A stretch of DNA of 24,026 nt from IMG/VR virus record IMGVR_UViG_3300043446_002987, positions 1-24,026 of that record; one strand, given 5' to 3'. How positions within the stretch are numbered: position 1 is the stretch's first letter; each line of letters begins with the position of its first letter. The stretch comes from a virus. This document shows positions 2,956 to 19,022 of the stretch, one piece after another. Position numbers and translations under genes: made by a program. The notes beneath the pieces are model-generated. The model worked only from the letters and a program-made list of their open reading frames with translations. It did not search any database and was not told the DNA's origin.

Positions 2956-4008
2956 ATGAGTCAATATGTAAAGAAAGCACTTGTTCTTGGTGCTGGTGGT
3001 TTTATTGGAAGTCATATGGTCAAAAGACTTCGTGCAGAAGGATACTGGGTTCGTGGTGTGGATCTTAAACACCCTGAGTTCTCAAGAACTGAAGCAAATG
3101 AATTTATAGTTGGTGACCTGAGGGACGTTGCGTTTGTTGAAAGAGTGATTCAATATAAAGGTGATAGAGGAAACTTCTACAACTTTGTTCCTTCACGATA
3201 TCTTCAGGCATTTGATGAGATCTATCAGTTTGCTGCTGATATGGGTGGTGCAGGTTTTGTCTTTACTGGTGAGAATGATGCAGATATCATGCATAACTCT
3301 GTTACCATTAACCTGAATGTTCTTGAGTCTGTAAGGAAGTTTAATGATTTTCTTGGCAAGAATGTAACTAAGATCTTCTACTCTGGATCTGCTTGCATGT
3401 ATCCAGAGCATAATCAACTTGATCCTGATAATCCCGATTGTCGTGAAGAGTCCGCTTATCCTGCTAACCCAGATTCTGAATATGGATGGGAAAAACTCTT
3501 TTCAGAAAGGTTGTATTTTGCTTATCATCGCAACTATGGTATTCCTGTACGTGTTGCTCGATACCACAATATTTTTGGACCAGAAGGTACTTGGACTGGT
3601 GGTAGGGAAAAAGCACCTGCTGCTATCTGTAGAAAAGTAGCAGAACTTCCTCTGGTTGGTGGTACAATTGAGGTATGGGGTGATGGAGAACAGACTCGTT
3701 CATTCCTCTTTATTGATGAGTGTATCGAAGCAACTCGTCGTATGATGGATTCCAACTTTATTGGTCCTGTGAATATTGGATCTGAGGAGATGGTTACCAT
3801 TAATCAACTGGTAGATACAGTTGCTAAGGTTGCTGGCATTCCTGTAAAGAGACAGCACAAACTTGATGCTCCTCTTGGTGTTCGTGGTCGCAATAGTAAC
3901 AACGATATTATCAGAAAAGAGTTAGGATGGGATTACTCCATGACTCTTGAAGAGGGAATCTCTAAAACTTATGCATGGATTAAAGAACAGGTAAACGCAA
4001 TTATTTGA
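2956..4008 (+). CDS. GDP-mannose 3',5'-epimerase-like SDR enzyme
   Basis: A 350-residue extended short-chain dehydrogenase/reductase with the NAD-binding GxxGxxG at residues 12-18 (GAGGFIG). Its core closely follows plant GDP-mannose 3',5'-epimerase (GME): ADMGGAGF, SACMYPE, YGWEK, GTWTGGREKAPAA, WGDGEQTRSFLFIDEC and PVNIGSEEMV. The plant catalytic set C145, Y174, K178 and K217 corresponds to C147, Y176, K180 and K219 here, a constant offset of two. GME converts GDP-D-mannose to GDP-L-galactose (and GDP-L-gulose). It is the first gene of the glycan operon and lies 27 nt after the -10 box. A related 4,6-dehydratase or fucose synthase is less likely given the GREKAPAA motif. Confidence 0.85.
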   Translation: MSQYVKKALVLGAGGFIGSHMVKRLRAEGYWVRGVDLKHPEFSRTEANEFIVGDLRDVAFVERVIQYKGDRGNFYNFVPSRYLQAFDEIYQFAADMGGAGFVFTGENDADIMHNSVTINLNVLESVRKFNDFLGKNVTKIFYSGSACMYPEHNQLDPDNPDCREESAYPANPDSEYGWEKLFSERLYFAYHRNYGIPVRVARYHNIFGPEGTWTGGREKAPAAICRKVAELPLVGGTIEVWGDGEQTRSFLFIDECIEATRRMMDSNFIGPVNIGSEEMVTINQLVDTVAKVAGIPVKRQHKLDAPLGVRGRNSNNDIIRKELGWDYSMTLEEGISKTYAWIKEQVNAII

Positions 4009-4013
4009 TTATC

Positions 4014-4823
4014 ATGAACCGTATTAAAGATTATTCAGAACTTGAAGATCGTATCGTATTTTGGTTAAAAGATTACGCACGTAAGTACAGTATTAAAGCA
4101 TTTGTGATTGGTGTTTCTGGGGGCATTGACTCTGCAGTATCATCTACTCTTGCTGCTAAAACAGGTCTTCCTGTGTATGCTGTGGGTATGCCAATTCATC
4201 AGAAAGAAGAGCAAGAAACTCTTTCTGATGGCCATCTTGAGTGGCTTCAATCAAACTTTAGTAATGTAATCACCAATAAGTTTGATTTGACGAAAGTATT
4301 TGAAACATTCAAGTTTACGATGGGAGAACTTGGCACAGATCCGCATTCACTTGCCAATACACGTTCCCGTCTTCGTATGGTGACTCTTTATCAGGTTGCT
4401 ACATCAGTTGGTGGTATTGTTGTTGGTACTGGAAACAAAGTTGAAGATTATGGTGTAGGATTTTATACTAAATATGGTGACGGTGGAGTTGATATTGCTC
4501 CTATCGCAGATCTCTATAAGACTGAAGTTTGGGAACTTGGCAGGCATTTTGGTGTAGATCAACGCATTATTGATGCCTCTCCTACAGACGGACTTTGGGA
4601 TGATGGAAGAACCGATGAAGATCAGATCGGAACTTCATATGCTACACTTGAGTGGGTAATGGATTCTGAGATTATGAAGGGTGGAACTGAGTTTGCACAA
4701 ACTCTTACACAGTGGAAAGGTATTACCATTACCGAAGAACAAAAGGTTGCGATCAGGCAATATGCAAAGTTTAATCAACAAAATCAACACAAAATGAATC
4801 CTATTCCTACATTCAAACTATGA
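4014..4823 (+). CDS. nadE: NH3-dependent NAD+ synthetase
   Basis: A 269-residue N-type ATP pyrophosphatase. SGGIDS at residues 35-40 is the PPi-binding loop. Other NadE signatures are GTGNKVEDYGVGFYTKYGDG, the DIAPIADLYKTEVWELG segment and SPTDGLWDDGRTDEDQIG. It adenylates nicotinate adenine dinucleotide and amidates it to NAD+. There is no N-terminal glutaminase domain, so it would use ammonia. ATG 4014 is chosen over an in-frame TTG at 4005. It sits between an NAD-binding epimerase and an NAD-dependent sugar dehydrogenase and overlaps the latter by 4 nt, so it may raise the NAD+ supply for these enzymes. A divergent amidotransferase role on a sugar is the main alternative. Confidence 0.85.
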   Translation: MNRIKDYSELEDRIVFWLKDYARKYSIKAFVIGVSGGIDSAVSSTLAAKTGLPVYAVGMPIHQKEEQETLSDGHLEWLQSNFSNVITNKFDLTKVFETFKFTMGELGTDPHSLANTRSRLRMVTLYQVATSVGGIVVGTGNKVEDYGVGFYTKYGDGGVDIAPIADLYKTEVWELGRHFGVDQRIIDASPTDGLWDDGRTDEDQIGTSYATLEWVMDSEIMKGGTEFAQTLTQWKGITITEEQKVAIRQYAKFNQQNQHKMNPIPTFKL

Positions 4824-5974
4824 AAATTGGCGTAATTGGTGCTGGCAGACTTGGTATTTGTTTTGCCCTGTTGTGTGAAGCAGCAGGGTATGACGTTCTT
4901 GTTTCAGATATCCGAGAGGATTATGTGAATGATTTGAACGAAAGAAAGATCAAGACCCATGAACCAGAAGTAGAAAATCTTCTCAAGGTTGCTAAAAACT
5001 TTAGGGCAACAACCAACAACAAAGAAGTGATTGAAGAGTGTGATTTGATTTACACTCTTGTTGCAACTCCCTCTCTTGAAGATGGTTCTTATGATGTTTC
5101 TTCAGTTTGGCAAGTCGTAGATGATTTCCAAGATGTAACTGCAGTAAAGTACTTTGTTGTGGGATGCACTACTAATCCTGGAGATTGTGCTAACTTTAAA
5201 AAGCAACTACCAAGTAATGTAAAAGTTTTCTATAATCCAGAGTTTATTGCACAAGGATCAATTATTAATGATCTTCGTACCGCTGACATGGTTCTTCTTG
5301 GAGCAGATCCATTCTCAAATAATGATAGGATTATTTCTGATATCAAAAGGTTGTATGAAAAGATTCAAACAACCCGTGCAATCGTATGCTCTATGTCCAC
5401 CACAGCAGCAGAGATTACCAAGATTGCTATCAACTGCTTCTTAACCACTAAGATCAGTTATGCAAATATGCTTGGTGATGTTCTTCATCATGCTGGTTGT
5501 GGAGATGAAGTTAGTACTGTGTTGACTGCTGTTGGAACCGATAGTCGTATTGGTAGAAAATATCTTGGTTATGGATTTGGATATGGTGGGCCTTGCCTTC
5601 CACGAGATAATAGATCCTTTGCTGCATTTGCCAAGAAGGTTGGATTGGAATATAATCTTGGTACAGTAACTGATGAAATCAATAATCAACATGCAATATT
5701 TGTGTGTGATTATTTTGAGAAGATGAATCAGAACAAAAAACCTTTTTACTTTGATTCCATCACTTATAAAAAAGGAACTGATATTCTCACAGAAAGTCAG
5801 CAATATCGTTTGTGTTTAGATCTTCTTGATCGTGGATATACTGTTTATATTCATAATGACAAGAAAGTTACTGATCAAATTTATGATTACATGACAACTT
5901 CTTATGGTGATAGGGTTAAGTTTGTGGATAAGCAAGAGAACATTACTGAACCATACTTTGTGGTAAATCTATGA
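4820..5974 (+). CDS. UDP-glucose 6-dehydrogenase-type enzyme
   Basis: A 384-residue member of the UDP-glucose/GDP-mannose dehydrogenase family. Residues 7-12 (GAGRLG) form the NAD-binding turn; NPEFIAQGS (139-147) and EITKIAINCF (198-207) are family signatures; C259 in GYGGPCLPRDN is the catalytic Cys that forms the thiohemiacetal. It oxidises a nucleotide sugar C6 alcohol twice to a uronate using two NAD+. UDP-glucose is the most likely substrate; UDP-GlcNAc/ManNAc or GDP-mannose cannot be excluded. The length is slightly short for Ugd, mainly in the C-terminal domain. It overlaps both neighbours by 4 nt (ATGA), typical of coupled translation. Confidence 0.85.
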   Translation: MKIGVIGAGRLGICFALLCEAAGYDVLVSDIREDYVNDLNERKIKTHEPEVENLLKVAKNFRATTNNKEVIEECDLIYTLVATPSLEDGSYDVSSVWQVVDDFQDVTAVKYFVVGCTTNPGDCANFKKQLPSNVKVFYNPEFIAQGSIINDLRTADMVLLGADPFSNNDRIISDIKRLYEKIQTTRAIVCSMSTTAAEITKIAINCFLTTKISYANMLGDVLHHAGCGDEVSTVLTAVGTDSRIGRKYLGYGFGYGGPCLPRDNRSFAAFAKKVGLEYNLGTVTDEINNQHAIFVCDYFEKMNQNKKPFYFDSITYKKGTDILTESQQYRLCLDLLDRGYTVYIHNDKKVTDQIYDYMTTSYGDRVKFVDKQENITEPYFVVNL

Positions 5975-6813
5975 TTGGATATAATCGACTGGGAGTGAAT
6001 GGAAGATTTGGAAATCAACTCTTCCAATATGCTGCTCTCCGTGGAATAGCAGCAAAACATGGATATGAATGGTGCATTCCTGAAGATAGTGCAAGAACTG
6101 CAAACTATGGGATGCATCATCCATTCAAACTAAAACATCTAAAGAATGTTGGTCAGGTGCCTTATCCTACTCGGGATGAGGCTCATTTTCATTTTGATGA
6201 AGACTTGTTCAATACCTTCCAAGATAATATGAACTTGGATGGATATCTTCAGAGTGAAAAATATTTCAAACATATTGAAGATGAAATCCGTGAGGACTTT
6301 GAATTTATTGATGAGATTCAAAAACCTTGTAGAGAATTTATTGAACAGTTTGAAAAGGTAATCTTCTTACATGTTCGTCGTGGTGATAATGTAGGTAGAG
6401 AACATCTTCATCCAGTTCCAACATTCGACTACTACTCAAAGGCACTTGAGTACTTTGATGACGATGCTATGGTTCTTATTTGTAGTGATGATGTTACTTG
6501 GTGTAAGGAGCAAGAGTTTTTCTCTGGAGAGAGATTCTTGATTAACGAGAGTGTAGAGCAATATTCTCATAAGTGTATGGAGGGTGATGGTGTTTATCGT
6601 AATTCTTTCATTCCATATACTGACTTGTGCTTGATGAGTTTGTGTAATGGTGCTATTATTTCACCAAGCACTTTAAGTTGGTGGGGTGCTTGGTTACAAA
6701 ATCCTCGTACAAATCCTGTGGTCGCACCTGATCCTTGGTTTGGTCCCCAACTATTAAAAGATAACGATACAAAAGACTTACTTCCCGATGATTGGATTAA
6801 ACTATCTTGGTAG
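5971..6813 (+). CDS. GT11 fucosyltransferase-like enzyme, copy 1
   Basis: A 280-residue GT11 (alpha-1,2-fucosyltransferase) family protein. The N-terminal GRFGNQLFQYA (11-21) and HVRRGD (134-139) form the GDP-sugar site; the C-terminal STLSWWGAWL is also diagnostic. GT11 enzymes transfer L-fucose from GDP-fucose in inverting fashion. Because the operon encodes a GDP-mannose epimerase and no visible GDP-fucose synthase, GDP-L-galactose, the 6-hydroxy analogue of GDP-fucose, is a plausible donor (inference). It overlaps the next GT11 gene by 26 nt and is clearly its paralogue (shared segments DEDLF, SEKYFKHIEDEIR). Confidence 0.85.
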   Translation: MIGYNRLGVNGRFGNQLFQYAALRGIAAKHGYEWCIPEDSARTANYGMHHPFKLKHLKNVGQVPYPTRDEAHFHFDEDLFNTFQDNMNLDGYLQSEKYFKHIEDEIREDFEFIDEIQKPCREFIEQFEKVIFLHVRRGDNVGREHLHPVPTFDYYSKALEYFDDDAMVLICSDDVTWCKEQEFFSGERFLINESVEQYSHKCMEGDGVYRNSFIPYTDLCLMSLCNGAIISPSTLSWWGAWLQNPRTNPVVAPDPWFGPQLLKDNDTKDLLPDDWIKLSW

Positions 6814-7597
6814 AATGGGACAACTGGGGAACCAGATGTTTCAATATGCTGCTGTAAAAGGAGTTGCAAGAAATAAGGGATATCAGTTTACTATCCCTCA
6901 ACATGATAATGCAGTTAAAGATTCCTTAGGAAATATTCTTAAGATTGAATTGTTTGAAGCATTTGATATTCAACCTGATAGTGTTGGATTTCTTATGGCA
7001 GATGCCGCTCGTAGTGAAATTGATTTTTCTTTTGACGAAGATCTTTTCAATAATTGTCCTGATGGAGTTTCTCTTGTTGGTTATTTTCAGAGTGAAAAGT
7101 ACTTCAAGCACATAGAGGATGATATCCGAAAAGATTTTACTTTTAAGAAAGAGTATTATGATGCATGTGAGGAAGCAAAACCTTTATTAGATAATCCGAT
7201 TGCCTTGCATATTCGTAGAGGTGATTTCTTGATTAATTCTGGCAATCACTATAATCTTTCTCTTAGTTATTATGAAAATGCTTTGAAAGAGTTTGATGAT
7301 GACAGGCAGGTAGTTATATTTTCTGATGATCCTAAGTGGTGTAAGGAGCAAAAACTGTTTGAAAACGATAGGTTCTTAGTTGCAGAAACTGGACATCCTT
7401 ATGTTGATATGTGTCTAATGACTTTGTGTTCTGATTATATTATTGCTAACTCTACATTCTCTTGGTGGGGTGCTTGGTTATCTCAAAATAAAAATAAGAT
7501 CGTTATCTATCCAGATAAATGGTTTGGTCCAAATAATATAGATAAATCTACTAAAGATTTGTTCCCTGAAGAATGGAGAATGGTTAATGAAAACTGA
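6788..7597 (+). CDS. GT11 fucosyltransferase-like enzyme, copy 2
   Basis: A 269-residue GT11 enzyme with GQLGNQMFQYAA (11-22), HIRRGD (141-146) and STFSWWGAWL near the C-terminus. The first residues MIGLNYLGRMG overlap the last codons of copy 1 in another frame over 26 nt, so this start is fixed by the LGRxGNQ motif. The two copies share FDEDLF, QSEKYFKHIED and WCKEQ with differing spacing, showing an old tandem duplication that has since diverged, probably towards different acceptors. All key residues are intact in both. Confidence 0.85.
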   Translation: MIGLNYLGRMGQLGNQMFQYAAVKGVARNKGYQFTIPQHDNAVKDSLGNILKIELFEAFDIQPDSVGFLMADAARSEIDFSFDEDLFNNCPDGVSLVGYFQSEKYFKHIEDDIRKDFTFKKEYYDACEEAKPLLDNPIALHIRRGDFLINSGNHYNLSLSYYENALKEFDDDRQVVIFSDDPKWCKEQKLFENDRFLVAETGHPYVDMCLMTLCSDYIIANSTFSWWGAWLSQNKNKIVIYPDKWFGPNNIDKSTKDLFPEEWRMVNEN

Positions 7598-8468
7598 TTT
7601 AAAGAATACAACTTTTATTATTCCTTTAAGAATCGATACTGGTGACAGACTTCGTAATGTAATTCTTACCACAGCATATCTTCTCCATCACTTTGATACC
7701 AATGTGCTCATAAAAGAAGTTGATTCTGAGCATAGATTCGAAGAGTATGCACTACCTATAATCAAAAGGTTAGTTGATACGAGTAATCTTCGACATATCT
7801 TTGAAGAAGAAACCAGAACAGATGATTCGTTTCATCGAACTAAAGTTCTGAACGATATGGTGATGGAAGCATCTACTGAGATTGTAGTAAACTATGATAC
7901 TGATATTATTCTTCCATTAGATTCTTATACCCAAGCAGTTGAAATGCTTAAGGGAGATTATGATGTTGTCTATCCTTATCGTTTTGGAAACCATGGAGAG
8001 AGAAAAGTAAATCTTGGATTTACAATTGAAACTCAAGAGGACATGGATAACTTTGAGACTGATGATTTTGTTTCTAGATTTATTGGATCTGGATATAGCT
8101 GTACTTGTTTTGATGATCGATTCTTTTATTATCCCAGTAATCAAGGATTAGGTTGGGCTGAGTATGGAATGGTTCAGTTCTTTAATCGTCAAGTCTATAT
8201 TGATGGATATTTGGAGAACGAAGGGTTTATTGCTTATGCTCCAGAAGATGTAGAAAGGCATCACAGATGGAAAGTTCTTGGTTATAATATTGGTAGAGTT
8301 GATAATCATGCTTATCATTTAGAACATCAGAGAACTCAAAACTCCTGGTATCATAATCCACACATGCAGAACAATAATCAGTTGTGGGAATACCTGAAGA
8401 GTCTTACAAAGGAACAATTAATTGAATATTATAAGAATCAAGATTATGTGAAGGAGAGAATTAAATGA
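7587..8468 (+). CDS. GT-A glycosyltransferase (galactosyltransferase-like)
   Basis: A 293-residue protein with the start of a GT-A fold (TTFIIPLRIDTGDRLRN), a DxD metal/nucleotide site at D104-D106 (NYDTDIILP), and a late motif APEDVERHHRWKVLGYNI near residues 217-234 that resembles the 'GxEDxExxxRxxxxG' region of family 2/27-type polymerising or galactosyl transferases. The last 60 residues are polar and may bind the acceptor. The donor is unknown; the UDP-uronate made by the dehydrogenase upstream is one candidate. It overlaps the gene before it by 11 nt and the one after by 4. Confidence 0.7.
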   Translation: MKTDLKNTTFIIPLRIDTGDRLRNVILTTAYLLHHFDTNVLIKEVDSEHRFEEYALPIIKRLVDTSNLRHIFEEETRTDDSFHRTKVLNDMVMEASTEIVVNYDTDIILPLDSYTQAVEMLKGDYDVVYPYRFGNHGERKVNLGFTIETQEDMDNFETDDFVSRFIGSGYSCTCFDDRFFYYPSNQGLGWAEYGMVQFFNRQVYIDGYLENEGFIAYAPEDVERHHRWKVLGYNIGRVDNHAYHLEHQRTQNSWYHNPHMQNNNQLWEYLKSLTKEQLIEYYKNQDYVKERIK

Positions 8469-9196
8469 ATTGGCATCTAGTAACCTATGCAGATGAAAAC
8501 TTTGTAGATCAACAAAAGTTCCTTCATCAAACACACAGTGAAGGGTTTGTACATCATCCTTTCAATAGAGAGAATTTAGAAAAAACAGAGTTCTATCAGA
8601 ACAATAAACAGATTCTTGATGAATCTACAGGTGCTGGATGGTGGATTTGGAAACCTTATTTCATCCTTGATGTGATGAAATCTGCAAATGAGGGAGACTT
8701 TATTATCTACTGTGACTGTGGAGATATGTTTTCCCCTGGATTAAAATCCTATGTGGAGTCAACAGTTTCTGATGACGCTTGTTTACTTCTTGTTGGAAAC
8801 AATATCAATGGACACTATACAAAACGAGATTGCTTCATTAAGATGAACTGTGATGAAGAAGATTATCATAACTCCAATCAATTGGAAGTTGGATTTATGG
8901 TTTGGAAAGTATGCCAACAATCAATAGATGTAGTTTCTGAATGGTTAAACTACTGTACAGATTATCAGATTATTAATAATGAACCCAGTGTTTTAGGTGA
9001 AGAGTTGTCTGGATTCGTTGCTCACAGAAATGATCAAAGTGTACTAACTAATCTTGCAATTCGTGATGGACTTACTGTTGGTGGAGCAGAATATAGAAAC
9101 TATGTAGAGTGTGATTATGATTATTGGTATGAACGGGGTGGAAGAGGTTTTGGTAGGGAAATTGATTCATTCTTGATGAGGATCAAAAATGCATAG
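8465..9196 (+). CDS. Putative GT-A-type glycosyltransferase
   Basis: A 243-residue protein with GAGWWIWKPYF (56-66) followed by GDFIIYCDCGD (77-87). This pair, a 'GxGxWxWKP' block and a D-x-G-D/DxD-like site after a beta strand, is typical of a family of poorly studied nucleotide-diphospho-sugar transferases in polysaccharide loci. Near the C-terminus, HRNDQSVLTNLA resembles the conserved 'HRxDQSxxSxL' segment of the same group. There is no signal peptide or membrane segment, so it would act in the cytoplasm. Overlaps: 4 nt upstream, 8 nt downstream. Donor and acceptor cannot be told from sequence. Confidence 0.6.
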   Translation: MNWHLVTYADENFVDQQKFLHQTHSEGFVHHPFNRENLEKTEFYQNNKQILDESTGAGWWIWKPYFILDVMKSANEGDFIIYCDCGDMFSPGLKSYVESTVSDDACLLLVGNNINGHYTKRDCFIKMNCDEEDYHNSNQLEVGFMVWKVCQQSIDVVSEWLNYCTDYQIINNEPSVLGEELSGFVAHRNDQSVLTNLAIRDGLTVGGAEYRNYVECDYDYWYERGGRGFGREIDSFLMRIKNA

Positions 9197-10004
9197 TATA
9201 GTTCTTACTGTTCATAATAAGGAGTGGTTGATTGGTAAGGTAATTGAAGGCATCGTCCTTAATACAACAGAACCTTATGAACTTATTGTTGTAATTGATG
9301 GATGTACTGACAACTCTGAGAAAGTTATCTGGGATACTCTTAGTGGAACTCCAGTTAACAAAAAGTTTATCTATGCTCCTGATGTCTTTGAAACAACTGC
9401 AAATAATCTTGGAATGAAAGCAGCAAAAGGTGATAAGATTATCATCGTTCAAGATGATATGATTATCAAAGAAAAAGGTTGGAATGTTAGAATGGAAAAA
9501 CCTTTTAACGCATTTGATGATGTCTTTGCCGTAACTTCAAGAACTGCACATAACTGGGTGTTCAATACTAACAGTCAGCATCTAGGGATGGAAGAAGATC
9601 TTGATACTTGTTGGTGTGATATTGTAGATCATGTTGACCACGCAGATAGGAAACAAGGACTTCCAAGAGATGTATTTGCTGTTCGTTGTTCAGTAAATCG
9701 TGGTCCTTTGATGATTGACCATGAAGATCTAAAGAAACTGAACTATCTTGATGAGGCATTTGCTCCTCAGGATATGGATGATCATGATCTTTGTTATCGT
9801 GCATATAAAGAACTTGGTAAAGTTGTTGGTGCGTACTGGATTGATTATGAAAGTGAAGATTCTTGGGGAGGAACCAGAGTTGAAACTGGATCTCCTGCTC
9901 CTTGGCTTCTAAAAGCACATCATAAAAACACAAAGATCTTTTATGATCGTCATGAGGACTTAATAAATACACGAAGGATTATTGAAAATAGGGAATTGAT
10001 TTAA
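9189..10004 (+). CDS. Family 2 glycosyltransferase
   Basis: A 271-residue GT2 protein. It opens with the family's first strand and turn (SIVLTVHNKEWLIGKVIEG), has DGCTDNS (37-43) for nucleotide binding, and an acidic metal site QDDM (88-91). The later APQDMDDHDLCYRAYKELG matches the 'xxDxDLxxR' acceptor-side motif. It lacks membrane segments, so it would be a soluble enzyme building the glycan one sugar at a time. Its stop (TAA 10002-10004) shares its last base with the next ATG. Confidence 0.8.
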   Translation: MHSIVLTVHNKEWLIGKVIEGIVLNTTEPYELIVVIDGCTDNSEKVIWDTLSGTPVNKKFIYAPDVFETTANNLGMKAAKGDKIIIVQDDMIIKEKGWNVRMEKPFNAFDDVFAVTSRTAHNWVFNTNSQHLGMEEDLDTCWCDIVDHVDHADRKQGLPRDVFAVRCSVNRGPLMIDHEDLKKLNYLDEAFAPQDMDDHDLCYRAYKELGKVVGAYWIDYESEDSWGGTRVETGSPAPWLLKAHHKNTKIFYDRHEDLINTRRIIENRELI

Positions 10005-10600
10005 TGAAGATTGATTTGGATCGTTGGCAACTTGCCCAAGACACAGAATTTACACATCATCAAGATCTTAGATTGGAAGCATATAGTCATGCATCCATGA
10101 TTATTGCAAAATATCTTGAGATTAACTATGAGGAAGACTTTAAGGATAAAGTAATCGTAGAAGTAGGTGGTGGACCAAGAGGATCTATCCTTCATACTAA
10201 GGGAAACTTTAAAAGAGGTATTCTGATCGAACCTCTGATTGATCGTTGGCCTGCTGAAATTAGAAAAGATTATGAGGATATTGGAGTGGAGATTATCTCT
10301 GCTGCGTATGAAGACTTGGAAATTGACGAGCAAATTGATGAGACATGGTTCTTTAATGTTATTCAGCATGTAATTGATCCTAAAGAACAATTAGAAATTG
10401 CAAAGAAAACTTCTAAAGTCATTCGTGTTTTTGAAAGTATTGGAAGTGCTGTTGATACTGCTCATCCTCATTTGATTACTGAAGAAACTTTTACCGAAGT
10501 TCTTGGTGAATTTGGTAAAGTCTTTAAGGGTGGAACTGAATCGGGATTCCACAGTGCTGATTGTTATTATGGAACATGGTATGCGTCTGATAACGTTTAG
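10004..10600 (+). CDS. Class I SAM-dependent methyltransferase-like protein
   Basis: A 198-residue protein with a Rossmann motif I, VIVEVGGGPRG (50-60), followed by an acidic end of strand 2 (RGILIEPLIDRW) and a WFFNVIQHV segment equivalent to motif IV. This is the organisation of class I methyltransferases that act on sugars, lipids or small molecules. The substrate is unknown; within this operon a sugar hydroxyl or the glycan end is likely. Its C-terminal 20 bases overlap the next gene. It is somewhat short, with little beyond the core fold. Confidence 0.65.
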   Translation: MKIDLDRWQLAQDTEFTHHQDLRLEAYSHASMIIAKYLEINYEEDFKDKVIVEVGGGPRGSILHTKGNFKRGILIEPLIDRWPAEIRKDYEDIGVEIISAAYEDLEIDEQIDETWFFNVIQHVIDPKEQLEIAKKTSKVIRVFESIGSAVDTAHPHLITEETFTEVLGEFGKVFKGGTESGFHSADCYYGTWYASDNV

Positions 10601-11396
10601 TCTTTTTGGAGATAATCCTCTTTATTGTGTTGGAGCAGTAGAAAACGCACGTCTTGCAAAAAAAATTTATCCAGATTGGATTGCAAGATTTTATGTTGCT
10701 GAGGATGTTCCTGAAGAATATGTTTCACAACTTAAGGAACATGATGCTGAGGTCTTTATCTGCCGAAGAAATAATTCTTATGATGGTTTGAACTGGAGGT
10801 TTAGACCATTTATAGATGACTGTGTAGATTTTTGGATCAGTAGAGATTGTGATAGTCGTCTGAGTTGGAGAGAACGTAGAGCAGTTGATGAATGGATGCA
10901 GTCTGATAAATCAATTCATCTGATGAGAGACTGCCACAATCATGGGTATTCTATGATGGCAGGAATGTTTGGTGTAAACAATAAGTTATTTCATGAACGG
11001 TATGGTAAAATAGATCTTGACAATCCATCTGCAAATAGAAGAGAAGATGATCAAACTGTTTTGCATAATATCATCTGGCCTTTGATTAAGTTTGATCACT
11101 TATGTCATGATCACTGGAAGAACAGTTCAATAGTTGGACAACCCACATATCAGAACGGAGATCATGTTCACTGGCAAAATGCTTATGGTGTTGGATTAAT
11201 TAACTATCTTGAAAGAGAAGTATACAATCAACTTAGAGAGATTTATCCTACTAATCAGGATAGTCGTCCATTCCCAGAACATGAACCTATGAAGTATGGA
11301 ATATTCGTTGGACAGATTATAGAAGCAGATGGAAAACCAAGAATCAATACCGACGTTCGTTGGGAATATGAACTGAGAGGATTATCTTATGAGTAA
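10581..11396 (+). CDS. Glycosyltransferase-like protein with RDxDSR motif
   Basis: A 271-residue protein with start MRLITFSLFGDNPLYCVGA. Its central motif FWISRDCDSRLSWRERRAVDEW (RDCDSR at 88-93) followed by IHLMRD (112-117) and MAGMFG (126-131) matches a recurrent but poorly described GT-A-like domain seen in polysaccharide loci and phages, where 'RDxDSR' probably takes the DxD role. ATG 10581 is chosen because family members begin with this strand; an upstream in-frame start would overlap the methyltransferase heavily. Product and donor unknown. Confidence 0.6.
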   Translation: MRLITFSLFGDNPLYCVGAVENARLAKKIYPDWIARFYVAEDVPEEYVSQLKEHDAEVFICRRNNSYDGLNWRFRPFIDDCVDFWISRDCDSRLSWRERRAVDEWMQSDKSIHLMRDCHNHGYSMMAGMFGVNNKLFHERYGKIDLDNPSANRREDDQTVLHNIIWPLIKFDHLCHDHWKNSSIVGQPTYQNGDHVHWQNAYGVGLINYLEREVYNQLREIYPTNQDSRPFPEHEPMKYGIFVGQIIEADGKPRINTDVRWEYELRGLSYE

Positions 11397-12777
11397 GTTT
11401 CATATTATTGGATCTGGTGCATGTGGATTTTTAAGGATTCATTACATTCTTAAGAATCATGTTCCAATCAAATATAAAGGTGGTGGTCCTAAGTATCAGA
11501 ATAGTTTTGAAACTTGGAACGATAATGGTTTGATCTGGGACTCGGAATCTTTATCTAAAGAAGAAAGAGTTCGTAGAGTTTCCTTACATGATACTACCAC
11601 TAATATTACACATTCATATCTGAAGTATGTTCCAGAGTTTCTTGAACTTCATCCTGATATGAGATTTTTATGTTTAAGGGGAAGAAGAGAACATTCAATT
11701 AGGTCTCTTGCAATTTCATGGGGATATCGTAATCCTTGTTATGTAAAAGATAGAACTCTTGGTGTAGGTCACAATCGATATGCAGTAGATCAATTTCCCA
11801 ATCTGAGTGATTCTAAGGATGAGTTTGAAGCAACTCAAAGATATTGGGATGAGTATTATCAGATTGCAAATGAGATGCAGGAAAGATATCCTAACAATTT
11901 TATTATTGCAGATTCTCCAGAGTTATTTTCTAATACAGAATATCAATTATGTTTGATGGGATTTGTGGGTATTGATGTAAGTGCTAATAGTTCTCCCAAA
12001 TCAATTGCCATCCCTGTTAACTTTAAGGAAGAAACAATTACAACATCACTTCATGGAGGTCTCGGAAATAATCTTTTCCAGATGGCAGAAGTAATTTCTT
12101 TCTGCAAGAAGTTTAATCTACCAGAACCAAAGTTTGGAACTTGGGATCTTCTGAACGGTGGAGGAAAGTATCCATCATCCTATAATGCAGATAGATTATT
12201 GGGTGGACATGATGGATCCCATAGGGATATTGCTTCTTGTTTTACAAACTTAAATTGGCGGGGAAATTTGCAAGCAGACTTCGATACTAAGTTTGTTGTA
12301 AATGATATGTTTAGGTTTTTTACTGCAGAAAATCTCGATTATGTGAGAGAAAAACTATCTGTAGGAACTCAAACAAAACCAAATACAGTATCACTTCATC
12401 TTAGATTTTGTACAAGACCTGCCGATGATCATGTAAATGGTTATGTTGATGATGAATTTTATGAAAAAGCTTTGACGATGATACCTCAGAATGCAGTTGT
12501 CTATATCTTCTCTGATGATAATAGAATGGCAAAAAATAAACTCAGTTGGTTCCGTCAAAACTTTAGTCAAACTTTTGAGATCTTTGTAGGTGATGCTTTC
12601 CAATCACTCAAGAAGATGGTAGAATGTGAATATCATATTTTGCATGTATCTACTTTTAGTTTCTGGTCTGCGTTCTTGGATCCAAATCAACCAAATGATA
12701 AAGTAATCTATCCAAAAGAATTTAATCAAACTCATAGTAATAATATGATTCCCTATAAAGAGTGGCAGATGATATGA
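11389..12777 (+). CDS. Fusion: sulfotransferase-like domain plus GT11-like domain
   Basis: A 462-residue two-domain protein. Residues 1 to about 205 begin with a P-loop-like IIGSGACGFLRI (6-17) and contain FLCLRGRREHSIRSLAISW (93-111), comparable to the 5'- and 3'-phosphosulfate-binding parts of PAPS sulfotransferases. From about residue 220 there is a GT11-like domain: LHGGLGNNLFQMA (221-233) and a late STFSFWSAFL. Its donor-site motif is HLRFCTRP (338-345) rather than HxRRGD, so activity or donor may differ from the two upstream GT11 enzymes. A single protein that both adds and sulfates a sugar is possible (inference). Overlaps: 8 nt and 4 nt. Confidence 0.6.
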   Translation: MSKFHIIGSGACGFLRIHYILKNHVPIKYKGGGPKYQNSFETWNDNGLIWDSESLSKEERVRRVSLHDTTTNITHSYLKYVPEFLELHPDMRFLCLRGRREHSIRSLAISWGYRNPCYVKDRTLGVGHNRYAVDQFPNLSDSKDEFEATQRYWDEYYQIANEMQERYPNNFIIADSPELFSNTEYQLCLMGFVGIDVSANSSPKSIAIPVNFKEETITTSLHGGLGNNLFQMAEVISFCKKFNLPEPKFGTWDLLNGGGKYPSSYNADRLLGGHDGSHRDIASCFTNLNWRGNLQADFDTKFVVNDMFRFFTAENLDYVREKLSVGTQTKPNTVSLHLRFCTRPADDHVNGYVDDEFYEKALTMIPQNAVVYIFSDDNRMAKNKLSWFRQNFSQTFEIFVGDAFQSLKKMVECEYHILHVSTFSFWSAFLDPNQPNDKVIYPKEFNQTHSNNMIPYKEWQMI

Positions 12778-13562
12778 ATTGTATCCTTTATCTTGTAAGA
12801 TCTTCAGATCAAGATGTTGAAGATTTCAATAAATCTCTAAGATTAGTAGAAGAAAATCTTATTCCATATACATCCAGTACTGATGTATTAGTATTTTGCG
12901 AAGAATCATTTGAAGATTATAAATCTAAAGTTCAAACTAATCTAAACCTTAGATATGAAACTATTGAGTTTAAAGTTCCTGATTATTCTCAAGAAATATT
13001 AGACCAGATTCCAGAGTTCTTTCCACATCCTACTCATGGGAACGGTCCAGTAGACTGGGGGCATCCAGGATTCTCTATGGGATACCGTCATATGTGTAGA
13101 TTTTTTTCTGGGGAACTTTATAATAATAGTGTTATAAAAGAGTATGATTATTACTTGAGATTAGATACCGATTCCTTTATTCATACTCCACTTAACTATG
13201 ATATCTTTAAGTGGGCAGAAGATGTTGGATGTTATTATGGATATATAGAACCCGCAATTCAAAAAGATAATCCAAAAGTAATTGAAGGATTGTGGCAAAC
13301 AGTTAATGAACTCATTCCAGAAAACTTTATTGAAGAGGGAATGATGTTCTATACTAATTTTGAATTGGGTAAAGTATCATGGTTCTTGACAAGTGAATAC
13401 ATGAGATTCTATAATGAGTTGGATCAAACTGGTGGGTTTTATACCAAGAGGTGGGGTGATGCTCCAATCAAATATCTTGGAGTAAATCTTCTCATGGAAC
13501 CAGAACATGTTATTCCAGTTAAAGGTTTTACATATCAGCACGGTGCAGTTTATACAGTCTAA
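12774..13562 (+). CDS. GT15-like (KRE2/MNT1-type) mannosyltransferase
   Basis: A 262-residue protein matching the fungal alpha-1,2-mannosyltransferase family GT15 in order and spacing: GYRHMCRFFSG (103-113), EYDYYLRLDTDSFI (123-136), YYGYIEP (154-160), NFELGK (195-200, with the acidic residue E197 at the position of the family's catalytic Glu), and GGFYTKRWGDAP (220-231) followed by GVNLL. GT15 enzymes transfer mannose from GDP-mannose and retain configuration. It lacks the N-terminal membrane anchor of the fungal Golgi enzymes. ATG 12774 overlaps the upstream TGA; an in-frame GTG at 12762 is the alternative. The donor pool is the same GDP-mannose used by the epimerase. Confidence 0.8.
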   Translation: MNCILYLVRSSDQDVEDFNKSLRLVEENLIPYTSSTDVLVFCEESFEDYKSKVQTNLNLRYETIEFKVPDYSQEILDQIPEFFPHPTHGNGPVDWGHPGFSMGYRHMCRFFSGELYNNSVIKEYDYYLRLDTDSFIHTPLNYDIFKWAEDVGCYYGYIEPAIQKDNPKVIEGLWQTVNELIPENFIEEGMMFYTNFELGKVSWFLTSEYMRFYNELDQTGGFYTKRWGDAPIKYLGVNLLMEPEHVIPVKGFTYQHGAVYTV

Positions 13563-14359
13563 TGGATAAAAACAAATCAACATTTAAACTTAAAAACTTT
13601 GGACCCATTTATTATCTAAATCTTGATGGGCAACCAGAGAGAAGAGAGTATATGGAAAACCAGTTTAAGTACTGGGAGATTGAAAACTATACTCGTATCT
13701 CTGCATATGATGGTAGAGAAGATGATCTCAGTGATATCATCAAAGGTAGGTATCCTGAGATGATGTCTTCTGGTGAGATTGGTTGTGTTACTTCTCATCT
13801 AAAAGCTATCAAACACTGGTATGAAACTTCCGATTCTCCTTATGCAATCATTATGGAAGATGATTGTAATCTGGATCTTGTAAGGTTTTGGAACTTTACT
13901 TGGGATGATTTCTATTGTCGTATTCCTTATGATTGGGACGTAGTTCAGATCGCAATCATTTGCACAGGAGATATTCATGTCAAAGTTCATAAAAGATTTG
14001 TGAATGAATTCTCTACTGCTTGCTATATTATCACTCGTCACCATGCAGAAAAACTATTGCGACTTCATGTAAGAGGTGATAAGTATAAACTGGATAATGG
14101 TGTTAAACCAAGACCTGTTGCTGATGACCTGATTTATAATTCGGGTAATACTTATAGTGTTCCTCTTCTTCTTTATCGGATTGAATTGGGATCTTCCATT
14201 CATCCTGAGCATATTGATGCATTTCATAAAGGAAACTATGATGGTCAAATGAACTTCTGGAGTCAAAAAGGTGCTCAATTGAGTATTGATGAACTGATGG
14301 ATTATGACCCTTATCTGGGTAGAGTTGTAGAAAGTTCGGCATCCCCAACAAGTACTTGA
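13562..14359 (+). CDS. GT25-family glycosyltransferase (LPS galactosyltransferase type)
   Basis: A 265-residue member of Glyco_transf_25. It opens with IYYLNLDGQPERREYM, the classical 'xxINLDxxxxRxxxM' strand; then GEIGCVTSHLKAI (71-83), the family signature; then YAIIMEDD (94-101), the acidic metal site. GT25 enzymes add galactose or glucose to LPS or to collagen hydroxylysine. It is the last gene of the operon. Its final codons ACT TGA overlap the TTGACA box of the porin promoter, so operon end and next promoter are fused. No terminator separates them. Confidence 0.8.
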   Translation: MDKNKSTFKLKNFGPIYYLNLDGQPERREYMENQFKYWEIENYTRISAYDGREDDLSDIIKGRYPEMMSSGEIGCVTSHLKAIKHWYETSDSPYAIIMEDDCNLDLVRFWNFTWDDFYCRIPYDWDVVQIAIICTGDIHVKVHKRFVNEFSTACYIITRHHAEKLLRLHVRGDKYKLDNGVKPRPVADDLIYNSGNTYSVPLLLYRIELGSSIHPEHIDAFHKGNYDGQMNFWSQKGAQLSIDELMDYDPYLGRVVESSASPTST

Positions 14360-14451: not shown

Positions 14452-15918
14452 ATGAAACTCAAACAACTGATGCTTGCACCTGTTGCTCTGGGAATGGTTG
14501 CTCCTGCTGCGATGGCAGCAGATCTTAATATGAACGGGGTCAACCAATACACATCCTCAGAACAGGTTACAAGTGTCACTCAATTTTCTGATGTCCGTCC
14601 TACCGATTGGGCATACCAAGCACTCAGCAATCTTGTAGAGCGTTATGGTTGCGTTGCTGGTTATCCTAATGGCACCTTTGCCGGTGGTCGTTCGATGACT
14701 CGTTACGAAGCTGCTGCTCTCTTGAATGCTTGCTTGGATCGTGTAACTGAAGTTACTGATGAACTGAAGCGTCTGACTAATGAGTTTGCAAAAGAACTCG
14801 CAGTTCTGAAGGGTCGTGTTGATGGTCTGGAAGCACAAGTCACTACACTTGAAGCACAGCAGTTCTCTACCACTACCAAACTGCGTGGTGAAGCAAACTT
14901 TGTTCTTGGTGGTGTTGATGACTACCAGACCAAAGGTGGTGATGTAACTCACACTGCATTCAACTACGATCTGCGTCTGAACCTGGATACTTCATTCACT
15001 GGTAAGGATCTGCTTCGTACTCGTCTGCGTTCTGCTAACTTCAGTGGTGATCCTTTTGGTTCCAGTTCTTCTATCTTCAAACTGGATAAGGCAGACGGAA
15101 CCACCAGTGAAGTTGGTAACAACGTAGTTATCGACCGTTTGTATTATTCATTCCCTGCGTTCAATAACACCACTACTCTAACTGCTGGTGCTATGGTTCG
15201 TAATACTGAAATCGCTTGGGTTCCTTCTGCTTATAACTCCAAGATCCTTGACTTCTTCCAAGTTGCTGGTGCTCCTGGTGTCTATAACAAGGCAACTGGT
15301 GCTGGTTTTGGTGTTCAGTATGGTAAGAAAGGTCTGGTTGCTGGTGTAAACTACGTTGCTCAAGCAGGTCAAGATAGTACCCGTGGTGAGTTTGATCGTT
15401 CTGGTGCTCTGAATACTCTTGCACAGATCGGTTATCGTGGTGATAACTATGGTATTGCATTCGGTTACCGTTATGGTACTGAGGGCACCCGTGTTCGCAC
15501 CTACAACGGTCTGGATGGTGCTTCTGGTGCTCTGGTTCCAGGTCAAACTTCCAACGGTTATGCCCTGAACGCATACTGGCAACCTACTCAATCGGGTTGG
15601 GTTCCCTCCATCTCCGCAGGTTATGGTTGGAACACTGTAAGTGGTACTCCTAGTGCTGCTACCAACAGTCAGTCCTGGTTTGCTGGTCTTCAGTGGGAAG
15701 ATGTATTTGCTGATGGTAATACCGCTGGTGTTGCTCTTGGACAAGCACCTACTGGTGAGAACCTTGAGAAGGCAACGATGCTTGAGATCTTCTACAAGTA
15801 TCAAGTGTCTGATAACATCAGCATCACTCCTGCTATCATTTACGGAAGTGACAACCAACGTCTTGCTGGTAACTCCTCTAACTGGGGTGGTGTAATTCAA
15901 ACGACATTCAAGTTCTGA
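14452..15918 (+). CDS. Cyanobacterial-type SLH-domain outer-membrane porin
   Basis: A 488-residue protein with a signal peptide (MKLKQLMLAPVALGMVAPA, cleavage after AMA at about 22). An S-layer-homology domain follows at about 43-100 (FSDVRPTDWAYQALSNL, GYPNGTFAGGRSMTRYEAAA), then a short coiled coil (about 100-140) and a long beta-barrel rich in Gly, Tyr and aromatic girdles that ends in the terminal Phe required for barrel insertion (TTFKF). This is the full architecture of the major porins of cyanobacteria, in which the SLH domain holds peptidoglycan or its secondary polymer. It would let solutes cross the outer membrane. Its codons look more C/G-ended than those of the preceding glycan genes, which suggests host origin. 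Complete and apparently functional. Confidence 0.9.
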   Translation: MKLKQLMLAPVALGMVAPAAMAADLNMNGVNQYTSSEQVTSVTQFSDVRPTDWAYQALSNLVERYGCVAGYPNGTFAGGRSMTRYEAAALLNACLDRVTEVTDELKRLTNEFAKELAVLKGRVDGLEAQVTTLEAQQFSTTTKLRGEANFVLGGVDDYQTKGGDVTHTAFNYDLRLNLDTSFTGKDLLRTRLRSANFSGDPFGSSSSIFKLDKADGTTSEVGNNVVIDRLYYSFPAFNNTTTLTAGAMVRNTEIAWVPSAYNSKILDFFQVAGAPGVYNKATGAGFGVQYGKKGLVAGVNYVAQAGQDSTRGEFDRSGALNTLAQIGYRGDNYGIAFGYRYGTEGTRVRTYNGLDGASGALVPGQTSNGYALNAYWQPTQSGWVPSISAGYGWNTVSGTPSAATNSQSWFAGLQWEDVFADGNTAGVALGQAPTGENLEKATMLEIFYKYQVSDNISITPAIIYGSDNQRLAGNSSNWGGVIQTTFKF

Positions 15919-17850: not shown

Positions 17851-18549
17851 ATGAGAATAGATCTGCATAATTTCTTTAAGTTTTATGATGAGAATAACCC
17901 CAAGCATGTTGCAGCAGTAGAGCAACTTGAGGTTGACTTAGCAGAAAAAAACCCAGATTTAATGGATGACTCGGCAAACTGGGTAAAAATTTATAGAACA
18001 AAAACAGAACCAACAGTTCCTGGAGTTCTCAACGTTCCTTATTTTCCGCAGACTGATAATTACAGAGATGCAAATAGAACCTGTAATTCTTCATCCTCTG
18101 CTATGTGCTTAGAGTATTTCAAACCTGGCACTCTAGTAGGACCTAAAGGCGATGATGCCTACGTTAGAAAAGTTTTCTCGGTCGGTGATACAACTGACCA
18201 CTCAGTTCAGACAAAAGTTCTGGACTCTTACGGTGTCAAATCACACTTCAGTTACAATCTTTCTTTTGCTGATCTTGATCGTGAGCTTGCCGCTGGAAGA
18301 CCTGTTGTTATTGGCATTCTTCATCGGGGGACTTTATCTAATCCCACAGGCGGACACATGGTAGTTGTGATTGGTAAGAAAGGTAATGACTATGTGGTAA
18401 ATGATCCATACGGTTCACTGAATGATGGATACACTGGAGCAGTAACCAACGGTAAAGGTGCTGTGTATAAGAGATCTGACCTTGAGAAAAGATGGACTCC
18501 TGATGGTCCAAAGTCTGGTTGGGGTAGAATCTTTGATATAAAAAAGTAG
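17851..18549 (+). CDS. C39-type peptidase, 5' part of endolysin
   Basis: A 232-residue protein with a papain-like C39_2 fold from about residue 60: VPYFPQTDN carries the oxyanion Gln (Q67), C78 in RTCNSSSSAM is the nucleophile, H169 in PTGGHMVVVIG is the general base, and D185 in VVNDPYG completes the triad. The first 55 residues are charged and helical. The family cuts peptides, including cell-wall peptides. The frame stops at TAG 18547-18549, immediately after A AAA AAG, a -1 slippery heptamer; the lysozyme frame overlaps here. Most ribosomes would make the peptidase alone and a fraction the peptidase-lysozyme fusion. Confidence 0.8.
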   Translation: MRIDLHNFFKFYDENNPKHVAAVEQLEVDLAEKNPDLMDDSANWVKIYRTKTEPTVPGVLNVPYFPQTDNYRDANRTCNSSSSAMCLEYFKPGTLVGPKGDDAYVRKVFSVGDTTDHSVQTKVLDSYGVKSHFSYNLSFADLDRELAAGRPVVIGILHRGTLSNPTGGHMVVVIGKKGNDYVVNDPYGSLNDGYTGAVTNGKGAVYKRSDLEKRWTPDGPKSGWGRIFDIKK

Positions 18550-18585
18550 AATCGACATCACAAATTCCTAAGTGTGGTGTCGATT
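18540..18585 (+). other. Programmed -1 ribosomal frameshift signal
   Basis: The slippery heptamer A-AAA-AAG (18540-18546) is in the correct phase for the peptidase frame (ATA AAA AAG TAG) and is followed at once by the stop codon. Three bases later begins a 13-bp stem, 18550-18562 with 18573-18585 (one U-G pair), loop of 10 nt. Purine-rich GGGG about 14 nt upstream might act as the internal Shine-Dalgarno that stimulates bacterial frameshifting. Slippage moves ribosomes into the lysozyme frame at GTA 18546. Confidence 0.75.
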
Positions 18586-19022
18586 TAATTAAAGAATTTG
18601 AAGGATGTCACTTGGAATCTTATCCCGATCCTCTTACTGGTGGACTTCCAATCACTATTGGTTGGGGATCTACTCGAAAGAGAAATGGTCAACCATTCAA
18701 GTTAGGGGAAAAAATTACTCAACTTGAAGCAGATGATTTATTGGAGTATGATATTGAATCAAGATTCTTACCAGCACTCAGAAAGATACCTTATTGGAAT
18801 GAAATGAATGACAACCAACGTGGAGCACTTCTATCTTTTGCTTATAATCTCGGTGCTGGCTTCTACGGTAGTAGGGGATTCAATACTATTACGACTAATC
18901 TTAGTCAGAAGAATTGGCAAGCAATCCCAGAAACCTTGAAGTTATATCGTAATCCTGGTAGTAATGTTGAGGTTGGATTGTTAAGAAGAAGAGGTGCTGA
19001 GGGTAAACTATGGAGTTCTTAA
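18546..19022 (+). CDS. T4-type lysozyme (GH24), read by -1 frameshift
   Basis: The lysozyme frame is open only from 18537, just after a TGA, and contains no ATG, GTG or TTG before TTG 18612, which lies beyond the catalytic Glu. So it must be read by frameshift from the peptidase gene. The first residues after the shift are VESTSQIPKCGVDLIKEFEG. Catalytic residues match T4 lysozyme: Glu in KEFEG (residue 251 of the fusion), Asp nine residues later in YPDPLTGG, Thr in TIGWG. ALLSFAYNLGAG and a C-terminal RRRGAEGKLW are family signatures. It cleaves peptidoglycan glycan strands. The fusion would be about 390 residues. The alternative is an undercalled A in the six-A run, which would also fuse the frames. 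Confidence 0.8.
   Translation, partial: VESTSQIPKCGVDLIKEFEGCHLESYPDPLTGGLPITIGWGSTRKRNGQPFKLGEKITQLEADDLLEYDIESRFLPALRKIPYWNEMNDNQRGALLSFAYNLGAGFYGSRGFNTITTNLSQKNWQAIPETLKLYRNPGSNVEVGLLRRRGAEGKLWSS

Follow-up and report, generated by a model that had tools for sequence, protein, structure and literature searches.

The endolysin of a T4-like cyanophage is very probably expressed by programmed -1 ribosomal frameshifting, by which ribosomes would pass from a C39-like peptidase frame into a GH24 lysozyme frame at a slippery A_AAA_AAG; the split frames, the heptamer, its spacing to a covarying stem and selection on the lysozyme are all evident in the sequences compared. The stretch of DNA analysed (the window, 24,026 nucleotides of IMG/VR record IMGVR_UViG_3300043446_002987) is a contig fragment of such a phage (psbA and genes for a high-light-inducible protein, a ferredoxin, a peroxiredoxin and tRNAs are present), with most gene names assigned by sequence reading alone. 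For the peptidase-lysozyme gene, the closest isolates are Synechococcus phages S-PM2 and S-SRM01. The pair is adjoined by the genes for peroxiredoxin and psbA, and its features are listed in Table 1. Elsewhere in the window, a series of sugar-metabolism and glycosyltransferase-like ORFs (2956-14359) lies between tRNA genes and a porin-like ORF (14452-15918), all named from their sequences only.

Table 1. Features of the peptidase-lysozyme junction, in positions of the window
Feature	Position	Strand	Basis
C39-like cysteine peptidase, 0-frame ORF, 232 aa	17851..18549	+	PF13529, invariant residues, predicted fold
TGA closing the -1 frame directly 5' of the slip site	18534..18536	+	sequence
Slippery heptamer A_AAA_AAG in 0-frame phase	18540..18546	+	sequence and relatives
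0-frame stop TAG, immediately 3' of the heptamer	18547..18549	+	sequence and stop-codon counts in relatives
Putative stimulatory stem, 5' arm; conserved core from 18554 (7 nt past the heptamer)	18549..18562	+	fold, helix search, covariation
Putative stimulatory stem, 3' arm, within the codons of the lysozyme's first conserved residues	18573..18586	+	fold, helix search, covariation
Continuation in the -1 frame: 158 aa past the slip, comprising a linker and the GH24 lysozyme	18546..19022	+	PF00959, invariant residues, dN/dS

The 0-frame ORF, which ends in the codons ATA-AAA-AAG-TAG, matches PF13529 (E 1.6e-13) and carries an N-terminal module of about 50 aa (IDLHNFFKFYDE...). Its Cys78, His169 and Asp185 are invariant in the 32 relatives compared, and although a PDB sequence search with the peptidase found no relatives, a fold search with its predicted structure (mean pLDDT 82.5) recovered C39 peptidases as the best matches. 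By this Cys-His-Asp triad and predicted fold it is a putative C39-like peptidase; that its target is peptidoglycan is assumed from the neighbouring lysozyme. The lysozyme half matches PF00959 (E 7.5e-22) and PDB lysozymes (down to E 2.5e-14), and its catalytic codons are those of Glu (GAA, 18600-18602), Asp (18627-18629) and Thr (18654-18656), corresponding to E21, D30 and T39, which are invariant in 29 aligned relatives. With this Glu-Asp-Thr set it is a predicted GH24 phage lysozyme endolysin, and its dN/dS (median 0.27, maximum 0.50 over 350 pairs) indicates purifying selection.

The -1 frame is open from 18537 to a TAA at 19020-19022 and overlaps the 0 frame at 18537-18549, with the heptamer inside the overlap. 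Ahead of the catalytic Glu the window's -1 frame contains no ATG, GTG or TTG, the first of these being a TTG at 18612, past the Glu codon; some shift-type relatives do have a possible GTG or TTG there. An earlier note on this DNA had described A-AAA-AAG in the phase of the peptidase followed by TAG, a lysozyme frame opening just past the TGA without a usable start before the Glu, a 13-bp stem-loop 3 nt on, and a fusion of about 390 aa with the junction peptide IKKVESTSQ. Each of these was recovered here: the stem is the same one, with 14 bp when its terminal G-U pair is counted, and both the fusion predicted from the slip (232 + 158 = 390 aa) and the junction peptide follow from the sequence. 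Ribosomes might instead terminate at the UAG and restart at a nearby non-standard codon of the -1 frame, such as AUU at 18564; the lysozyme would then be a free protein and the stem would serve some other purpose. Such coupling is known among the relatives, 17 of which have an ATGA stop-start overlap, some with bare lysozymes that lack the N-terminal module (L102, L109, L111, L117). The window, however, has neither this overlap nor any standard start before the Glu, and reinitiation leaves unexplained the invariant heptamer, the AAG preference and the covarying stem described below, as well as the lack of both heptamer and stem at ATGA junctions; it is considered very unlikely.

IMG/VR and annotated phages supplied relatives of both halves, and each junction was sorted by frame, start codons and heptamer. 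The first set held 110 distinct junctions, 71 of them shift-type (lysozyme in the -1 frame, heptamer in the overlap), with A_AAA_AAG in 70 and T_TTT_TTT in one (S-CAM7); there were also 17 ATGA junctions without a heptamer, 17 pairs of separate genes (four of which were later recognised to have a second kind of shift site) and five in-frame fusions. None of the 110 was an overlapping -1 junction without both heptamer and start, those that lack the heptamer having a start codon over the stop. Two further scans, run once the hypothesis had been fixed, yielded 36 additional distinct junctions, of which 27 were shift-type (25 A_AAA_AAG, one T_TTT_TTT and one A_AAA_AAA with its own ATG), two had their own start and seven were fused. 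Split frames and signal are thus conserved together in 71/110 and 27/36 distinct junctions, and because the junctions of about 98 distinct relatives preserve it, the arrangement is far above chance.

These counts also bear on whether the frames are truly fused and split only by a sequencing error, or the lysozyme is a dead, decayed pseudogene. The window is metagenomic and homopolymers are error-prone, but the split recurs in these roughly 98 distinct junctions, which come from many samples, as well as in the genomes of S-PM2 and S-CAM7, and purifying selection and invariant catalytic residues argue against decay, so that this explanation, refuted by the comparison, is scarcely credible. The earlier note's concern over an indel in the run of six A can be set aside: of the 70 A-type junctions, 69 have six A and the remaining one, with seven, still has its frames split, which excludes an assembly indel. 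Its proposal of a -1 frameshift is likewise supported by relatives both near and remote, S-PM2 and S-CAM7 included, that keep the split frames, the heptamer and a stem of varying sequence.

AAAAAAGTAG has a single occurrence in the 24-kb window. The run of A in A-type junctions is invariably ended by G, and the second Lys codon is AAG in 70/70 A-type heptamers, compared with 39% of Lys codons in the preceding part of these genes. Shift-type junctions end the 0 frame with TAG in 56/71 cases, as against 7/149 among the remaining long ORFs on these contigs, an excess to which shared descent may have contributed. A slow stop such as TAG adjoining the slip site may also aid a shift. The homopolymer at the site, which in S-CAM7 is eight T, raises another explanation, that RNA polymerase gains or loses a base in the run and the fused frame is translated from altered mRNA. 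Polymerase slippage usually requires longer runs, however, than the six A, always closed by G, of nearly all A-type junctions; it leaves the covarying stem 5-8 nt downstream unaccounted for, as well as a second site, G_GGA_AAG, that lacks a homopolymer. Transcriptional slippage is therefore judged even less likely than reinitiation, and frameshifting by the ribosome is the preferred reading.

The tRNA complement of possible hosts was surveyed with sequence patterns and ARAGORN. Synechococcus WH 5701, taken as a host-type genome rather than as the identified host of the window's phage, has one tRNA-Lys, with anticodon UUU, among 46 tRNA hits; by pattern, three further Synechococcus/Cyanobium genomes have one tRNA-Lys(UUU) apiece, and no tRNA-Lys CUU gene was found in these three. 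In E. coli, A_AAA_AAG is very slippery where the sole tRNA-Lys is UUU (PMC5009743).

The window's hairpin has a loop of 10 nt, and the fold of 18530-18610 (-21 kcal/mol) is more stable than dinucleotide shuffles (-10.9 +/- 2.7; z -3.7), with one of 200 shuffles as good. Over the junctions, the mean folding z is -2.48 for the shift type versus -0.10 for the ATGA type. The stem arms are unlike between phages, yet paired within each (e.g. GACATCACA/TGTGGTGTC, AGTTCTATTCT/GGAATAGAACT, GCCAACTAAC/GTTGGTTGGC and CCCCACTAT/ATAGTGGGG): arms from the same phage have a helix score of 23.6, against 14.15 +/- 0.68 (maximum 16.6) in 5000 permutations that matched each 5' arm to a 3' arm from a different phage, figures that are not strict probabilities because the relatives share ancestry and independence is overstated. 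In the register family of the window, 88% of cells are paired, with double changes at 7 pairs; after sliding of the arms these values were no higher than 48% and 4 pairs. It was mainly the linker that tracked the 3' arm, because the 3' arm encodes the conserved first part of the lysozyme domain. Resampling of synonymous codons with the protein unchanged gave a weaker stem at p<0.05 in 60/71, which rules out the stem as a side effect of the encoded protein. Three stem registers, one codon apart, were distinguished, and in all of them the conserved core begins 5-8 nt past the heptamer, the usual distance from a heptamer to its structure and within the ~5-9 nt characteristic of programmed -1 sites. 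A few heptamer junctions have weak stems. The stem is weak, or missing, at heptamer junctions with an additional ATG overlapping the stop (L003, L052, L378, L414), as would be expected of a stem that serves the shift alone.

Isolates carry the same signal. Both deposited genomes of S-PM2 have GCAAAAAAGTAA followed by a AGCTCTACTTC/GGAGTAGAGCT stem, and the "putative lysin" annotated there is a 72-aa fragment with its start within the domain; three isolates of S-CAM7 have GTTTTTTTTCCACAGTAG at the eight-T run and a GTAGAACC/GGTTCTAC stem, with a lysin annotated at 72-90 aa. The shift accounts for these S-PM2 and S-CAM7 annotations of 72-90 aa, which lack the catalytic Glu, and its site shows annotators where the gene is to be joined. 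S-SRM01 has the heptamer alongside an ATG of its own.

The two domains are also joined in other ways. Plain in-frame fusion in relatives, which the earlier note had thought would count against the shift, does occur (Synechococcus phage ACG-2014f, L126, L131), but it does not refute the shift in the window because it is one of several alternative arrangements. ACG-2014f has both domains in identical order in one polypeptide; unlike the window, its frame is continuous, and free peptidase is not expected. L126 and L131 look like former shift sites, because they retain GTA-AAA-AAG and the complementary stretches GTTCTACT/AGTAGAAC. A quick tree of the peptidase requires 14 changes of the shift label, of which well-supported branches force eight or more, and shift and ATGA types are mixed in the clade closest to the window; therefore, the downstream lysozyme module has evidently been swapped repeatedly at the junction. 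Own-start lysozymes at ATGA-type loci (L012, L014, L024 and others) often possess an N-terminal domain of another kind (MTIKFIDAVKNHKDLPHQNDAW...), which may be distantly equivalent to the peptidase N-terminal module. S-CREM1 (L004, 1497-2678) has the reversed domain order, lysozyme then peptidase, in one frame.

A second shift site was recognised in the lineage in which the peptidase gene is apart from that of the lysozyme. Four of its lysozymes have no start and are preceded by a small ORF that is a copy of the peptidase N-terminal module, with the end CPHCGK-(S/P)-LGK and the final codons CTG-GGA-AAG-stop, i.e. G_GGA_AAG. A dedicated scan for this site found 35 loci, representing 22 distinct junctions (the IMG/VR loci include L130, L145, L148, L155 and L418-L452), with the lysozyme in the -1 frame and the stop directly after the heptamer. 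Most have a GC-rich stem from about 6 nt on (mean z -2.4), with the compensatory variants GGGCAGC/GCTGCCC, GGACAGC/GCTGTCC and GCGGCAG/CTGCCGC. In E. coli, G_GGA_AAG is likewise highly shift-prone (PMC5009743). In other phages, the same module is joined in frame to the lysozyme (~223 aa), or a separate lysozyme has its own copy of the module (hmmsearch E ~1e-24). Joining of the lysozyme to the module looks like a common aim, because it is reached via frameshift, in-frame fusion or duplication, although the bare lysozymes show that it is not universal.

The mechanism of the shift is itself of a known kind. E. coli dnaX shares the heptamer A_AAA_AAG, a stem-loop a few nt downstream and a host with tRNA-Lys(UUU) as its single tRNA-Lys (PMC5009743). 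The effect on product length is opposite: slipping yields a shorter protein in dnaX but a longer one in the cyanophage, where the 0 frame stops immediately. Upstream of the cyanophage heptamer, no clearly conserved stimulator of the Shine-Dalgarno type was found; GG(A/T)AGA, ~11 nt upstream, is not claimed as one, being set by the protein motif GWGRIF and variable (GGTCGT in many). In dsDNA phages, most known cases of programmed frameshifting concern tail genes and some capsid genes. The tail assembly chaperone pair G/GT is also a phage gene pair joined by a -1 slip, with the 0-frame product as the shorter one, and the G_GGA_AAG of the second cyanophage site is what we take to be the G/GT heptamer of lambda; the cyanophage genes differ in encoding lysis enzymes, with no adjoining tape measure gene. 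Transposases of the IS3 family are made by frameshifting at A_AAA_AAG with a stem. They resemble the cyanophage pair in that signal and in the joining of two ORFs into a longer fusion (PMC5009743). Unlike them, the cyanophage locus has no transposase or inverted repeats, its domains being a peptidase and a lysozyme.

Among lysins, that of Lactococcus phage phi-vML3, reportedly described by Shearman in 1994, is said to come from two overlapping genes; it differs from the cyanophage case in host and enzyme, and we know of no conserved shift signal in it. The Lactococcus phage lysin appears in the PRFect authors' list of genes with a known frameshift (PMC10885494). The split lysin of Lactobacillus phage Sabazios similarly has overlapping ORFs for which slippage was considered, and its authors found no slippery sequence (PMC7260188). 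The literature searched contained no description of a frameshifted cyanophage endolysin, nor of any conserved frameshift making an endolysin besides this listed Lactococcus phage lysin (PMC10885494).

On finishing the peptidase, ribosomes would stand on A_AAA_AAG, directly before the UAG and facing a strong hairpin. In a fraction of these ribosomes the Lys-tRNAs would re-pair one base back, on AAA-AAA, and translation would run on into the lysozyme frame to give the 390-aa peptidase-lysozyme; ribosomes that do not slip would terminate at the UAG and release the 232-aa peptidase. Such slipping probably takes place in infected cells, where it may yield the two products in the set ratio that the earlier note proposed. 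Most likely it serves to supply lysozyme attached to the peptidase and its N-terminal module, with free peptidase retained. The chances are about even that the lysozyme of cyanophages has come under frameshift control on two or more occasions, through different signals (A_AAA_AAG behind a C39 peptidase, G_GGA_AAG behind the module with the CPHCGK tail), with the slip as a control of lysis. If so, the slip would set the amount of wall-cutting lysozyme that bears the shared N-terminal module relative to a partner without lysozyme. A conserved shift that makes the endolysin would tie translation to lysis in viruses that matter to marine and freshwater cyanobacteria.
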